Below are positions 196 to 4,743 of a DNA stretch of 44,211 nt, piece by piece. Position 1 is the first letter of the stretch. Each line of letters opens with the position of its first letter. The position numbers and the translations under genes were made by a program. Origin of the DNA: an uncultured Pelagibacteraceae bacterium (lineage in GTDB: Bacteria; Pseudomonadota; Alphaproteobacteria; Pelagibacterales; Pelagibacteraceae); the NCBI GenBank assembly GCA_902566775.1, contig CACFKF010000008.1, forward strand, positions 1 through 44,211, read 5' to 3'. The notes below the pieces were generated by a model that was not told the origin of the DNA, did not search any database, and was given only the letters and a program-made list of their open reading frames with translations.

Positions 196-858
196 TTATT
201 TTACTGGGTCTGGAACCTTACGCAAATAAGGTTTTATAGTTTCCCAACCATCTGGATATATTTTTTTTGCTTCTTCGTTTGTAACTTTTGGAACAATAAT
301 TACTTTTTCACCTGGTTTCCAGTCAGCTGGTGTAGCAATTTTATGTTTTGCTGTACGTTGCATTGAATCAATTGTTCTTAATATTTCATGAAAGTTACGT
401 CCTGTTGTCATTGGATATGTTAAAAATAAACCAATTCTTTTATCTGGTCTAATAACATAAACTGTTCTAACAGTTTCATTATCTACCGCAGTACGACCCA
501 TAGATGTTGTTCCAGCATCACCTTCTAACATATTATAAAGTTTTGCTACTTCTAACTTTTCATCTGCAACAATTGGATAGTTTGGTTTTAGTCCACAAAC
601 ATCTTTAATATCATCTAACCACTTAACATGATCAGAAACTGGATCAACACTCAATCCCATAACTTTGACATTTCTTTTGTCAAACTCGGGTTTCATTTTA
701 GCCAATGCCCCAAGTTCAGTTGTGCAGACTGGAGTAAAGTCTTTTGGGTGTGAAAATAAAACTCCCCAACTATCTCCAAGCCATTCGTGAAAAGATAATT
801 TTCCTTCTGAAGTTTCAGCTGTAAAATCTGGAGCTACACTATTAATTTTTAAAGTCAT
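196..858 (-). CDS. 1-Cys peroxiredoxin (Prx6-type)
   Basis: Thiol peroxidase of 220 residues reducing H2O2 and organic hydroperoxides in the cytoplasm. The peroxidatic motif PVCTTELG places the catalytic cysteine at residue 45 with Thr42, and Arg131 fits the conserved active-site arginine. The length and the long C-terminal extension after residue 170 (PADWKPGEKVIIVP, then YPDGWETIKPYLR) are typical of the Prx6/1-Cys group rather than the 190-residue AhpC group. A second cysteine at 88 (DVCGL) is not in the usual resolving position. The ATG at 858 follows a purine-rich GAGAGG ribosome site, and a good promoter with a perfect TATAAT lies just upstream. It is divergent from the persulfide dioxygenase gene, so both may be controlled by the same short region. 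Confidence 0.93.
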   Translation of the reverse strand: MTLKINSVAPDFTAETSEGKLSFHEWLGDSWGVLFSHPKDFTPVCTTELGALAKMKPEFDKRNVKVMGLSVDPVSDHVKWLDDIKDVCGLKPNYPIVADEKLEVAKLYNMLEGDAGTTSMGRTAVDNETVRTVYVIRPDKRIGLFLTYPMTTGRNFHEILRTIDSMQRTAKHKIATPADWKPGEKVIIVPKVTNEEAKKIYPDGWETIKPYLRKVPDPVK

Positions 859-943: not shown

Positions 944-1639
944 ATGATATTTGAACAATTATTCGATACAAAATCTTCAACCTACACTTACATTATAGCT
1001 AGCGGTAAAGGGCGTGAAGCTTTAATAATTGATCCAGTCATTGAAAACTCAGATCAATATATAAAAATTCTAAAAAATTTAGATTTAAAATTGGTCAAAG
1101 TAATGGATACACATATTCATGCAGATCATATTTCTGGTTTAAATGAACTTAGTAAAAGAACTAAATGCACAAAAATCATGGGAGAAAAATCTAGTTCAGA
1201 AGTTTTAGACATACGTGTCAAAGATAACGAAAAAATAAAAATTGAAAATATAGAGTTAATATCAATGTATACTCCAGGTCACACTGATTGCTCTTATAGT
1301 TTTTTAATGAACGATAGAGTTTTTACTGGTGATGCATTGTTAATTAATGGTACAGGAAGAACAGATTTTCAAAATGGTAGTTCACTTGATGCGTATAATT
1401 CTTTGTTTAATAAATTATTAAAATTACCTGAAAAAACTTTAGTATTTCCAGCCCATGATTATAACGGAAAAAAATATTCAACAATTGAAAGTGAAAAACA
1501 CAATAACCCTAGACTTCAAGTAAATTCTGCTGACGAATATGCTGAAATAATGAATAATTTAGATTTAGAAAATCCAAAAATGATGGATATAGCGGTTCCT
1601 GCGAATGTTAAAGGTTTTACTTTAGATCAAATAAATTAA
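944..1639 (+). CDS. Persulfide dioxygenase, ETHE1-like metallo-beta-lactamase fold
   Basis: Predicted mononuclear iron enzyme that oxidises glutathione persulfide to sulfite and glutathione. Near residue 60 it has THIHADHISG, the HxHxDH metal motif of the metallo-beta-lactamase fold. GHTDCS near 110, FTGDALL and GRTDFQNGSS near 130-145, and FPAHDYNG near 175 are hallmarks of the ETHE1 branch and separate it from glyoxalase II. Length (231 residues) fits ETHE1. I chose ATG 944; a TTG at 938 in frame would add two residues. It heads a plus-strand block followed by a Cys-rich miniprotein, CysE and CysK, so a role in sulfide/persulfide handling fits the context. No rhodanese domain is fused. Confidence 0.85.
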   Translation: MIFEQLFDTKSSTYTYIIASGKGREALIIDPVIENSDQYIKILKNLDLKLVKVMDTHIHADHISGLNELSKRTKCTKIMGEKSSSEVLDIRVKDNEKIKIENIELISMYTPGHTDCSYSFLMNDRVFTGDALLINGTGRTDFQNGSSLDAYNSLFNKLLKLPEKTLVFPAHDYNGKKYSTIESEKHNNPRLQVNSADEYAEIMNNLDLENPKMMDIAVPANVKGFTLDQIN

Positions 1640-1689
1640 ACTAAAAAAATTATTATTGTAATTTTAGTAAGAATAATTATATTTGTCCT

Positions 1690-1809
1690 ATGTCTTGTAA
1701 TAATCCAAAGTGTAATTGCAAAAACTGCAACTGCGAAAGCTGCAGTTGCGATGGAAACAAAGACTGTGTTTGTGCACCTTCTGCTACTAATTGTTGTTGT
1801 AATAACTAA
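1690..1809 (+). CDS. Metallothionein-like cysteine-rich miniprotein (39 aa)
   Basis: A 40-codon frame from ATG 1690 to TAA 1809 in the gap between the persulfide dioxygenase gene and cysE. The translated protein has 39 residues, 12 of them cysteine, at positions 3, 8, 10, 13, 15, 18, 20, 26, 28 and 35-37. Four CxC pairs plus a terminal CCC, no aromatic residue and mostly Asn, Lys and Ser between them are the composition of a metallothionein or thiol-rich metal/persulfide buffer. I recognise no specific family. TGC/TGT codons are rare in this AT-rich DNA, so 12 of them in 39 codons is unlikely by chance. No clear ribosome site is seen (upstream bases are AATTATATTTGTCCT). Same strand as its neighbours, 50 bases after one and 34 before the other, so probably cotranscribed. 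Confidence 0.72.
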   Translation: MSCNNPKCNCKNCNCESCSCDGNKDCVCAPSATNCCCNN

Positions 1810-1843
1810 CAATTAGTTTAATTAAACTTCAAAAAATTAAATT

Positions 1844-2413
1844 ATGAATGATTATTTACAGTCTATTATCAATCGAGACCCAGCTGCAAAATCCAAGTTA
1901 GGGGTCATTCTAACTTATCCTGGAGTAAAAGCTGTTTTCTTTCATCAAATTGCACATTTTTTTTCTGTTGCAAAATTTGATCTTGTTGCAAGAATTATAT
2001 CTCAGTTTTCAAGATTTTTGACAGGAATAGAAATCCATCCAAAGGCTAAGATAGGAAAAAATTTATTTATTGATCATGGCATGGGTGTTGTCATTGGAGA
2101 AACTTCAGAAATTGGAGATAATGTTACTATCTATCACATGGTTACATTGGGGGGCATTTCTCCTAGCATAGACTCGGACAATCAAAGAAACATTAAAAGA
2201 CACCCTACCTTAAAAGATAATGTGGTAGTTGGTTCTGGAGCTCAAGTTTTAGGACCAGTTATCGTTGGAGAAAATGCTAAGATTGGAGCAAACGCAGTAG
2301 TAACTAAAGATGTTCCTGAAAATGCAGTAATGGTTGGCATACCAGCTAAAAATGTTGGAACTACAACTAAAGAATTTAAACCTTACGGTATTACTCCAAG
2401 TAGTGACAAATAA
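1844..2413 (+). CDS. cysE: Serine O-acetyltransferase (short type)
   Basis: Makes O-acetyl-L-serine from serine and acetyl-CoA, the first step of cysteine synthesis. At 189 residues it is the short form, starting at the NRDPAA segment that begins the catalytic unit. A left-handed beta-helix follows from about residue 65 ([18 protein letters not shown]), with the catalytic His in [11 protein letters not shown] and the hexapeptide repeats [30 protein letters not shown] and [13 protein letters not shown]. Its stop (2411-2413) is one base before the cysK ATG (2415), so the two are translated as a pair, matching the cysteine synthase complex their products usually form. Confidence 0.93.
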
Positions 2414-2414
2414 A

Positions 2415-3416
2415 ATGAAAAATTCGCAAAATAATTTTATTGAAGGTATTGGTAATACTCCTTTAATAAAACTTAAAGCTGCATCAGAATTAACAGGATG
2501 CAATATTTATGGGAAAGCTGAATACTTAAATCCAGGTGGATCTGTAAAAGATAGAGCTGCTTTAGCTTTACTAAAAGATGCAGAAGAAAAAAAACTTATT
2601 TCAAAGGGGGGTATTATTGTTGAAGGAACTGCAGGCAATACTGGGATAGGGCTATGCCTTTTAGGAAATTCATTAGGATATAAAACTATAATTGTAATGA
2701 ATGACAATCAAACCCAAGAAAAAAAAGATACTTTAAAAAATATTGGTGCTGATTTAAGATTGGTTCCACCCAAACCTTATAAAGATGATGGTAATTACGT
2801 TAAAGTTGCTGGACGACTTGCTGAAGAATTAAAAGCTAGTAATAACCAAGGTGTAGTTTGGGCAAATCAATTTGATAATGTTGCAAATTCTAAAGGACAT
2901 TATGAAACTACAGGACCAGAAATTTGGCAACAAACAGATGGTAAAATCGATGGTTTTGTTTGTGCGTCTGGCACAGGAGGGACTATTGGTGGTGTTAGTA
3001 GTTATTTAAAAGAGAAAAACAAAAATATTAAAATTTATTTATCAGATCCAAGAGGATCTGCTCTTTATAATTATATAAAAAATGGTGAACTAAAAAGTGA
3101 AGGTGGATCCATAACAGAAGGAATTGGTTCGAGTAGAGTAACAAAAAATTTCGCAACAGCAAAAATAGATGGGGCTTTTTCGATTGACGATAAAGAGTCT
3201 TTGCCAATTATTTTTGATTTGATTCAAAATGAAGGTTTAAGTTTAGGTACAAGTAGTGGTGTTAACATAGCAGGTGCTATTAGATTAGGAAAAGAACTTG
3301 GTCCTGGAAAAACAATAGTTACTATCCTTTGTGATAAATCAGACAAATACAATAGCAAGTTGTTTAACAAAAAATTTCTCCAGGAAAAAGACTTGCCATA
3401 TCCAAACTGGCTTTAG
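2415..3416 (+). CDS. cysK: Cysteine synthase / O-acetylserine sulfhydrylase (mitochondrial/fungal-like subtype)
   Basis: PLP enzyme joining O-acetylserine with sulfide to give cysteine; 333 residues from ATG 2415. Motifs in order: IEGIGNTPLIKL near the N-terminus, the PLP lysine in LNPGGSVKDRAA, the substrate loop EGTAGNTGIG, phosphate-binding SGTGGTIGG and the late TSSGVNIAGA. EGTAGNTGIG with VPPKPYKDDGNYVKVAGRLAEEL is the variant I associate with fungal/mitochondrial-type cysteine synthases, whereas classical CysK reads EPTSGNTGIG. An in-frame ATG at 2334 lies inside cysE and would add 27 unrelated residues, so I rejected it. Immediate coupling to cysE and proximity to a persulfide dioxygenase suggest growth on reduced sulfur. 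Confidence 0.92.
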   Translation: MKNSQNNFIEGIGNTPLIKLKAASELTGCNIYGKAEYLNPGGSVKDRAALALLKDAEEKKLISKGGIIVEGTAGNTGIGLCLLGNSLGYKTIIVMNDNQTQEKKDTLKNIGADLRLVPPKPYKDDGNYVKVAGRLAEELKASNNQGVVWANQFDNVANSKGHYETTGPEIWQQTDGKIDGFVCASGTGGTIGGVSSYLKEKNKNIKIYLSDPRGSALYNYIKNGELKSEGGSITEGIGSSRVTKNFATAKIDGAFSIDDKESLPIIFDLIQNEGLSLGTSSGVNIAGAIRLGKELGPGKTIVTILCDKSDKYNSKLFNKKFLQEKDLPYPNWL

Positions 3417-3450
3417 TACACTTAATAAATAATTTTATAGAAAATTAATT

Positions 3451-4368
3451 ATGTCAGAGTTAATTGCATTTATTGGTGTTGGAAACATGGGTAACCCAAT
3501 GGCAGAAAATTTAATAAAAGCTGGAAAAAAAGTTCGCGTCTACGATGTTTCCAAAGAAATGATTAATAAAGCTAAAGAAAAAAAATTCGATATTGCAAAT
3601 AATATTGATGATCTTTTAACTGGTTCAGTTTCTACTGTAATTACTATGCTGCCAGCAGGAAAACATTCAAAAGAAGTTTATTTAGGTAAAGAAGGAATAA
3701 TAAATAAAGTATCTAAAGATTGTCTTTTAATTGATTGTTCAACTATTGATATAAAAACTTCAGTAGAAATAGGAACAACAGCTAAAGAAAAAGGAATTAA
3801 AATGATAGATGCTCCAGTAAGTGGAGGTATAATGGGAGCCAAAAACGCAACTTTAACTTTCTTAGTAGGAGGAAGCAAAGATGCTTTTGATCTTGCAAAA
3901 CCTCTTTTAGAAATTATGGGAAAGAATATTTTCCATGCGGGAGAGCTTGGGTGTGGAAATGGTGCAAAGATTTGCAACAACATGGCTCTAGGAATTTCAA
4001 TGATAGGTGCATCTGAGGCTTTAATGTTAGCAAAAAGATTAAATATCGACATTAAAAAGGTTCATGAAATTATGAAAAATGCATCAGGTAACAGTTGGCC
4101 AATATCTGTTTACCCTCCTCTACCTGGTCTTAAAGAAGGAGTTCCGTCAAATAATAAATATCGACCTGGTTTTTCTGCTGGCATGATGAGTAAGGATTTA
4201 AAGCTTGCAATTGAATGTGCTGAAGAAGTTAAAGCAAATACTCCTCTAGGTTCTAATGCAAATAATATTTACGATAAATTTTGTAAAGAAGGTAATAGCA
4301 ATAAAGACTTTTCAGCTATATCAAAGGTTGTAGGTGGAGACGCTTGGGATTACGAAATTGACGATTAA
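3451..4368 (+). CDS. mmsB: 3-hydroxyisobutyrate dehydrogenase-family beta-hydroxyacid dehydrogenase
   Basis: NAD-dependent beta-hydroxyacid dehydrogenase of 305 residues. The N-terminal Rossmann motif is FIGVGNMGNPMAENL (residues 8-22). The substrate motif DAPVSGGIMGAKNATLTFLVGG (about 120-141) and catalytic Lys173 with Asn177 in GNGAKICNNM agree with 3-hydroxyisobutyrate dehydrogenase, which oxidises 3-hydroxyisobutyrate to methylmalonate semialdehyde in valine breakdown. Close relatives act on tartronate semialdehyde or other hydroxyacids, and no valine pathway gene is adjacent, so the substrate is provisional. It follows cysK after 34 bases on the same strand and is probably the last gene of that transcript. 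Confidence 0.82.
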   Translation: MSELIAFIGVGNMGNPMAENLIKAGKKVRVYDVSKEMINKAKEKKFDIANNIDDLLTGSVSTVITMLPAGKHSKEVYLGKEGIINKVSKDCLLIDCSTIDIKTSVEIGTTAKEKGIKMIDAPVSGGIMGAKNATLTFLVGGSKDAFDLAKPLLEIMGKNIFHAGELGCGNGAKICNNMALGISMIGASEALMLAKRLNIDIKKVHEIMKNASGNSWPISVYPPLPGLKEGVPSNNKYRPGFSAGMMSKDLKLAIECAEEVKANTPLGSNANNIYDKFCKEGNSNKDFSAISKVVGGDAWDYEIDD

Positions 4369-4452: not shown

Positions 4453-4743
4453 ATGGAAAAAGAAATGCTTGCAATAGCAAGACTTAAATCTGGTAAATTT
4501 GAAAAGTTCATGGGATTTATGCAGTCAGATGAAGGAATGGCAGTAAGAAAAACTGTTGCTCATGTTGAAAAAACAGTCCCAGCAATAGGACCAGATAAAA
4601 GTTATGTTATGTTTAAAGTTTCAGTTCACAATGAAGAAGAAATGAAGAAGTTCGCTTCAGGCAATAATCCAATAGCAAAACCTATTTTCGATGAATGTGT
4701 CGAAGTTGTTGAAATGTATGAATTGAGCAAAGTTAATCTATAA
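4453..4743 (+). CDS. Small protein of unknown function (96 aa), first gene of a five-gene mini-operon
   Basis: I do not recognise the family. The 96-residue protein alternates strands and helices (AIARLK strand, KFEKFMGFMQSDEGMAVRKTV helix, SYVMFKVSVH strand, EEEMKKFASG helix, then VEVVEMYEL strand). This suggests a ferredoxin-like or dimeric alpha/beta-barrel fold like its neighbour, but that is inference. One cysteine (DECVEV), no signal peptide or membrane segment. ATG 4453 is preceded by AAAGGAG, a good ribosome site, and a possible -10 box TACAAT lies at 4422-4427. The four following genes start 4-12 bases after, directly at, or overlapping the previous stop, so this gene likely begins their common transcript. 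Confidence 0.8.
   Translation: MEKEMLAIARLKSGKFEKFMGFMQSDEGMAVRKTVAHVEKTVPAIGPDKSYVMFKVSVHNEEEMKKFASGNNPIAKPIFDECVEVVEMYELSKVNL

Follow-up and report, generated by a model that had tools for sequence, protein, structure and literature searches.

What does a reading frame of 39 codons, 12 of them for cysteine, do in front of the cysteine-biosynthesis genes of a SAR11 bacterium? Few cells in the ocean are as abundant as SAR11 bacteria, whose genomes are stripped down. The short open reading frame (sORF) lies in a window of 44,211 nucleotides, the whole stretch of DNA analysed, from an uncultured Pelagibacteraceae bacterium. A preliminary description of the window had interpreted its product as a metallothionein-like protein that buffers metals or holds persulfide sulfur. 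The metallothionein-like protein is the best-supported reading of the locus; binding of metal or persulfide stays a prediction. Judged from its sequence, the sORF is probably the gene for a metallothionein-like protein with a predicted metal cluster of 11-12 Cys, expressed with its own cysteine supply. Metal binding is the most likely property of the putative protein.

Table 1 Features of the sORF locus, numbered from the first letter of the window.
Feature	Position	Strand	Description
1-Cys peroxiredoxin	196..858	-	PF00578 and PF10417; divergent, upstream of ETHE1
ETHE1-like persulfide dioxygenase homologue	944..1639, ATG at 944	+	PF00753 (metallo-beta-lactamase); nearest solved relative 4ysb (2e-66), third 4chl, human ETHE1 (2e-52)
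Promoter-like element	1656..1683	+	TTGTAA (1656-1661), 16-nt spacer, TATATT (1678-1683) ending 6 nt before the ATG
Cys-rich metallothionein-like sORF (candidate)	1690..1809	+	ATG at 1690, stop 1807-1809; 39 aa, 12 of them Cys; CxC lattice and terminal CCC; homologues on 123 distinct DNA stretches
sORF stop-to-cysE gap	1810..1843	+	A+T-rich, no Shine-Dalgarno-like motif
cysE, serine O-acetyltransferase	1844..2413	+	TIGR01172 218 bits (cut-off 211); NF041874 228 bits (cut-off 150)
cysK, cysteine synthase A-like gene	2415..3416	+	NF007989 522 bits (cut-off 387)

The sORF translates to MSCNNPKCNCKNCNCESCSCDGNKDCVCAPSATNCCCNN and then a stop. In the five flanking genes, cysteine accounts for 1.1% of 1278 codons; at that rate, the binomial probability of at least 12 Cys in 39 codons is 9e-15. 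Among the 549 start-to-stop frames of 25-60 residues in the six frames of the window, nested starts included, the sORF ranks first for Cys, with 31% against 17% for the next. The ORF that the preliminary description had reported at 1690-1809 of the forward strand is present with its 39 residues, 12 Cys, CxC repeats and terminal CCC, and its view that Cys codons are scarce here and their clustering unlikely by chance agrees with these figures. The neighbouring genes that it had named, for a persulfide dioxygenase, cysE and a cysteine synthase, are confirmed by the PDB relatives and NCBIfam cut-offs in Table 1; the ETHE1-like protein itself reaches the cut-off of no NCBIfam model. The divergent 1-Cys peroxiredoxin adds a further gene to those it had named.

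We fetched 190 loci for the sORF. A peptide pattern fits 187 of them, which represent 123 distinct DNA stretches and 94 distinct proteins. The homologues have 36-44 residues and 10-13 Cys. Almost all of the distinct proteins have at least 11 Cys (92 of 94), a CCC run (92 of 94) and four or five CxC motifs (93 of 94), while F, Y, W or H occurs in 45 of them, with 53 such residues overall. They are short, very rich in Cys, built on a CxC lattice and poor in aromatics, which is the composition of the metallothionein class. The core is an almost fixed lattice of 11 Cys, MxCxNxxCxC..C....C.C ... C.C.P....CCC. Length varies at the C-terminus and in the loop that joins Cys20 to Cys26, which in one homologue (L010) contains an extra CxC. 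Asn5, Cys8 and Cys10 are conserved in the 94 proteins and 123 stretches partly by construction, because the pattern required these three residues. Three loci outside the pattern have an intact sORF with one core change each, and with ETHE1 and cysE in place: Cys8 is missing in L201 and Cys10 in L227, and Asn5 is replaced by Ser in L226. Single members also substitute Cys3 or Cys36.

Selection was measured on 48 distinct coding sequences, chosen without requiring Asn5 but found by profile. Pooled over 137 close, non-independent pairs, dN/dS is 0.014 at Cys columns and 0.58 at the other columns; TGT and TGC swap freely at the former (pS 0.38). Asn5 is found in 48 of the 48 sequences, encoded by both AAT and AAC, and Pro30 in 46, by both CCT and CCA; an acidic residue, Asp or Glu, occupies position 16 in 46. 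Taken as a whole, the non-Cys positions are only moderately constrained. The pattern of purifying selection at the Cys columns, Asn5 and Pro30 therefore argues for selection on the amino-acid sequence and not just on a run of codons. The sORF is a real gene, with a frame conserved at the protein level. The idea that it is a chance or non-coding frame can be set aside with near certainty: the sORF is short, only a minority of genomes in the genus match it and Pfam and NCBIfam searches give nothing or chance-level matches, but the conservation of 94 distinct homologues and the dN/dS of 0.014 at Cys columns refute it.

A profile search found the sORF in 80 of 399 genomes of the same SAR11 genus, about a fifth; among the 57 genus genomes with completeness of 90% or more and contamination of 5% or less, 9 have it. 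Many of the 319 genomes without a match are incomplete. In an initial set of 61 genomes, 11 matches comprised 10 real ones, the window's own included, and a spurious one. Weak rows were removed ahead of any counting: in one search, 57 of 201 at E<=1 were listed, of which 42 were accepted (E<=3.8e-7) and 15 dropped (E>=0.015). Across the order, 27 of 41 listed rows were accepted and 14 dropped, which gives strong matches in 27 of 247 genomes, all within the window's genus, one of ten genera. L011 and L056-L058 are among the dropped rows. A class-level search of 337 genomes found the sORF in the window's own genome only. Scanning genome contigs with a single peptide pattern, which also required Asn5 and could therefore miss remote relatives, returned 149 pattern matches and 106 confirmed loci; the 80 of these that were listed are all titled Pelagibacteraceae or Pelagibacterales (SAR11). 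We also considered viral spread and rejected it: 577 pattern matches on viral contigs include no confirmed relative, and 50,697 phage records contain no match.

The gene order in the window is divergent 1-Cys peroxiredoxin, ETHE1-like homologue, sORF, cysE, cysteine synthase and 3-hydroxyisobutyrate dehydrogenase. An ETHE1 homologue lies upstream of the sORF in 188 of 190 loci, and cysE follows next in 188 of 190, the exceptions being L101 and its copy L194. The full order ETHE1 - sORF - cysE is kept in 186 of 190 (183 of the 187 pattern loci, plus L201, L226 and L227). In a set of 79 loci with cysE, the peroxiredoxin is present in 76. A scan of ten neighbouring proteins showed neither a metal transporter nor a metal regulator. 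The preliminary description had proposed synteny with ETHE1 and cysE and dN/dS as checks, and loss of the frame in relatives that keep the flanking genes as grounds for refutation; frame, Cys spacing and position are all conserved, and both checks came out in its favour. Farther downstream, window positions 4453-4743 encode a 96-residue protein with no Pfam match. It recurs soon after cysE-cysK in several SAR11 loci, where a ribosome site of GGAG type often precedes it.

A promoter-like element lies at a fixed distance from the sORF ATG. TATA occupies positions -12 to -9 from the sORF ATG in 115 of 123 stretches, against 1.9% per position elsewhere upstream, and TTG occupies -34 to -32 in 108 of 123. 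With a -10 box that ends six bases short of the ATG, the transcript is predicted to start at or next to the ATG, and none of the 123 stretches has a Shine-Dalgarno-like motif (AGGA, GGAG or GAGG) before the sORF. Thus, the sORF looks leaderless and would be the first gene of a cysE(-cysK) transcript. cysE starts 25-38 nt past the sORF stop, and no Shine-Dalgarno-like motif was found between the two in 121 gaps. Because this gap is short and lacks such a motif, cysE may be translated by ribosomes that have just completed the sORF, and depend on them. In loci that lack the sORF, a TATATA box starts 12-15 nt before the cysE ATG in 5 of 26 (L060, L062, L063, L064 and L075). In many of the sORF-less SAR11 loci L059-L084, cysE is divergent from an apparent VOC/glyoxalase-type gene, and a TATATA-type box lies upstream of cysE at a distance of about 36-52 nt.

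By analogy with known leaders, the same arrangement could also belong to a cysteine-responsive leader peptide, an explanation that the preliminary description did not raise. Scarcity of Cys-tRNA would slow ribosomes at the Cys codons, above all at the terminal CCC, on a leaderless mRNA whose first translated frame is the sORF, and would change the translation or transcription of cysE-cysK. We consider this rather unlikely. It would fit the leaderless-type spacing of the promoter and the short gaps, which make coupled translation plausible. As in an attenuator, contiguous Cys codons (CCC in 92 of 94 proteins) stand before a cysteine gene (cysE next in 188 of 190 loci). The predicted unpairedness of the cysE start is 0.59 with a ribosome at the sORF end and 0.49 without (41 loci). 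A hairpin of 6-7 A/U-rich base pairs is possible just after the stop in a subset identified by eye (for example L003, L004, L005, L018, L029, L032, L040 and L045); two of these examples have z below -2, and L029 and L045 retain the pairing with a G-C pair.

Against a leader stands, above all, the extent of selection, which spans the whole peptide: Asn5, Pro30 and the near-fixed CxC spacing are all kept. Folding predictions also count against it. The stretch from the sORF stop to cysE folds no better than its shuffles (mean z -0.27, 42 sequences), and inspection of 42 gaps by eye revealed no hairpin with a U run behind it. When 41 of 122 loci, every third one, were compared with a synonymous-shuffle null, the folding energy equalled the null (+0.18 +/- 0.60) and the cysE start was slightly more open than in it (+0.039 +/- 0.008). 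In these predictions, which covered both the gap and the entire sORF, an mRNA structure that hides the start is absent as a general feature, with a weak hairpin in the subset; an RNA attenuator as a general feature was rejected, since folding is no better than in the shuffles or the synonymous null. Furthermore, no ORF with more than 4 Cys lies within 400 nt upstream of cysE in 29 sORF-less loci, so that cysE manages there without a leader of this kind. The leader explanation is weakened by these results.

One genome retains the sORF without cysE-cysK, which also speaks against a leader. Its two records, L101 and L194, have the same DNA: ETHE1, the promoter and an intact sORF are followed by the equivalent of the 96-residue gene at window 4453-4743, and cysE-cysK is gone (L101:2900-3480). 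The best cysE match elsewhere in that assembly is 30% identical. The arrangement may be a natural deletion or a chimera of single-cell amplification. The junction falls where the sequence that follows the sORF resembles the one that follows cysK; because this similarity allows an amplification artefact, we give the case little weight. There is no second sORF without cysE among the 61 genomes.

In a set of 32 genomes without a confident sORF match, 31 have cysE, and 30 of their loci were fetched. Of 27 such loci from the same genus, 6 have ETHE1 beside cysE with a gap of about 24-41 nt; the sORF unit is therefore present or absent as a whole. On a quick tree of cysE/cysK, three changes are enough to explain which loci have the sORF, against 24 with shuffled labels. 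A length cut was passed by 26 of the 27 same-genus loci that lack the sORF and by 117 of the 123 that carry it; removal of copies left 140 rows in the tree, which excludes three loci of other genera. The nested clade of L067, L068 and L074 is best read as a loss of the sORF. One sORF-bearing row, L124 (L124:3001-3132; MAG MED-G107), stands isolated on a long branch among sORF-less rows; transfer or an old pattern of loss is possible there.

The near-constant neighbour on the other side could point to a different role, in which the peptide carries sulfane sulfur: it would hold persulfide sulfur that the adjacent persulfide dioxygenase makes or removes and pass it on, and metal binding would not be its main function. 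The ETHE1 homologue upstream in nearly all loci, with a peroxiredoxin beside it in most, counts in favour of such a carrier. However, L098 and L099 have sORF - cysE in a second genomic setting, without ETHE1 or cysteine synthase; at about 2400-4100 of these loci, the gene downstream of cysE is presumably msrB-like and the opposite-strand gene presumably FAD-dependent dehydrogenase-like. In addition, the sORF has a promoter-like element of its own, separate from ETHE1, and its lattice is dense in CxC, as is typical of metal-thiolate clusters. A persulfide carrier therefore seems improbable.

A metal-binding protein would account for a CxC lattice that hardly varies, for the conserved residues and for the absence of a confident fold, and would explain the link to cysE-cysK as a supply of cysteine. 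We propose that the sORF, cysE and cysK would be transcribed from the promoter-like element as one leaderless message. The peptide would have no stable fold until metal is bound, and would then wrap a thiolate cluster around a small number of divalent ions (Zn, Cd) or around Cu(I). Coupling to serine acetyltransferase and cysteine synthase would meet its demand for cysteine. Its role would be the buffering or detoxification of soft metals, and it might also scavenge oxidants or sulfane sulfur beside the peroxiredoxin and the persulfide dioxygenase. Several points count against the protein reading: its neighbours are sulfur and redox genes and it resembles no known metallothionein family; the non-Cys positions are only moderately constrained, core positions can change, and 319 of the 399 genus genomes lack a match; and the near-constant linkage to cysteine biosynthesis and the terminal CCC are also expected of a cysteine-sensing leader. 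A dual role, in which leaderless translation of a metallothionein-like protein gauges cysteine and sets the output of cysE-cysK, is conceivable but doubtful; if true, metal buffering capacity and cysteine synthesis would be tied in cis in streamlined ocean bacteria. The locus lends itself directly to testing a link between metal buffering and amino-acid supply, and a conserved Cys-rich protein almost always before cysE, outside family models, would be an overlooked part of SAR11 metal or sulfur homeostasis. A metagenome study describes few detoxification genes in Candidatus Pelagibacter (PMC4161860). The open-access papers searched, with most subscription journals outside their coverage, appeared to include none on such a protein in SAR11 or Pelagibacter, and nothing came up on cysteine-rich small proteins in Pelagibacter.

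How does the sORF compare with known systems? Polycysteine leaderless sORFs of mycobacteria were reportedly treated by Canestrari et al. in 2020. As far as second-hand accounts of their mechanism go (PMC9031893, PMC13236596, PMC9094748), they share with the SAR11 sORF a short ORF of leaderless type, contiguous Cys codons and a position upstream of cysteine-biosynthesis genes. Unlike them, the SAR11 sORF shows selection on the whole peptide and a CxC lattice, gave no general start-sequestering structure in the predictions, belongs to a different phylum and persists in one genome without cysE.

NCBIfam gives no match to the sORF protein, and Rfam finds nothing at gathering score over the window. 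Matches in Pfam and the PDB to YmjE, LDL-receptor modules and a mucin were rejected as chance-level. AlphaFold2 models the protein with a pLDDT of 63.4, a pTM of 0.27, two short strands and almost no other secondary structure; such a low-confidence model is expected for a metal-templated peptide, and equally for any poorly modelled one. The bacterial metallothioneins SmtA and BmtA (PF02069, Metallothio_Pro) are likewise small, Cys-rich and presumed cytosolic, with CxC motifs; no signal sequence is evident by eye in the sORF protein. SmtA-kind proteins use His ligands, and the smt arrangement has a metal regulator as neighbour. In contrast, the window's copy of the sORF protein has no His, ends in CCC and neighbours cysE. 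PF02069 gives no match at E<=10 for it or for any of 30 homologues, and membership in that family was rejected on the profile. The same model finds nothing in the 61 genomes, the window's own included, and does match the control, Synechococcus elongatus, in line with the earlier remark that few metallothioneins are known from SAR11. Eukaryotic metallothionein domains also have 11-12 Cys in about 30-40 residues, with CxC and CC(C) runs, and the mammalian alpha domain has 11 Cys; the likeness is one of composition and spacing, with no sequence relationship in Pfam or the PDB. Since the sORF protein has no PF02069, NCBIfam or PDB relative and fits the class in composition and spacing, we call it a putative new SAR11 family of metallothionein-like proteins.
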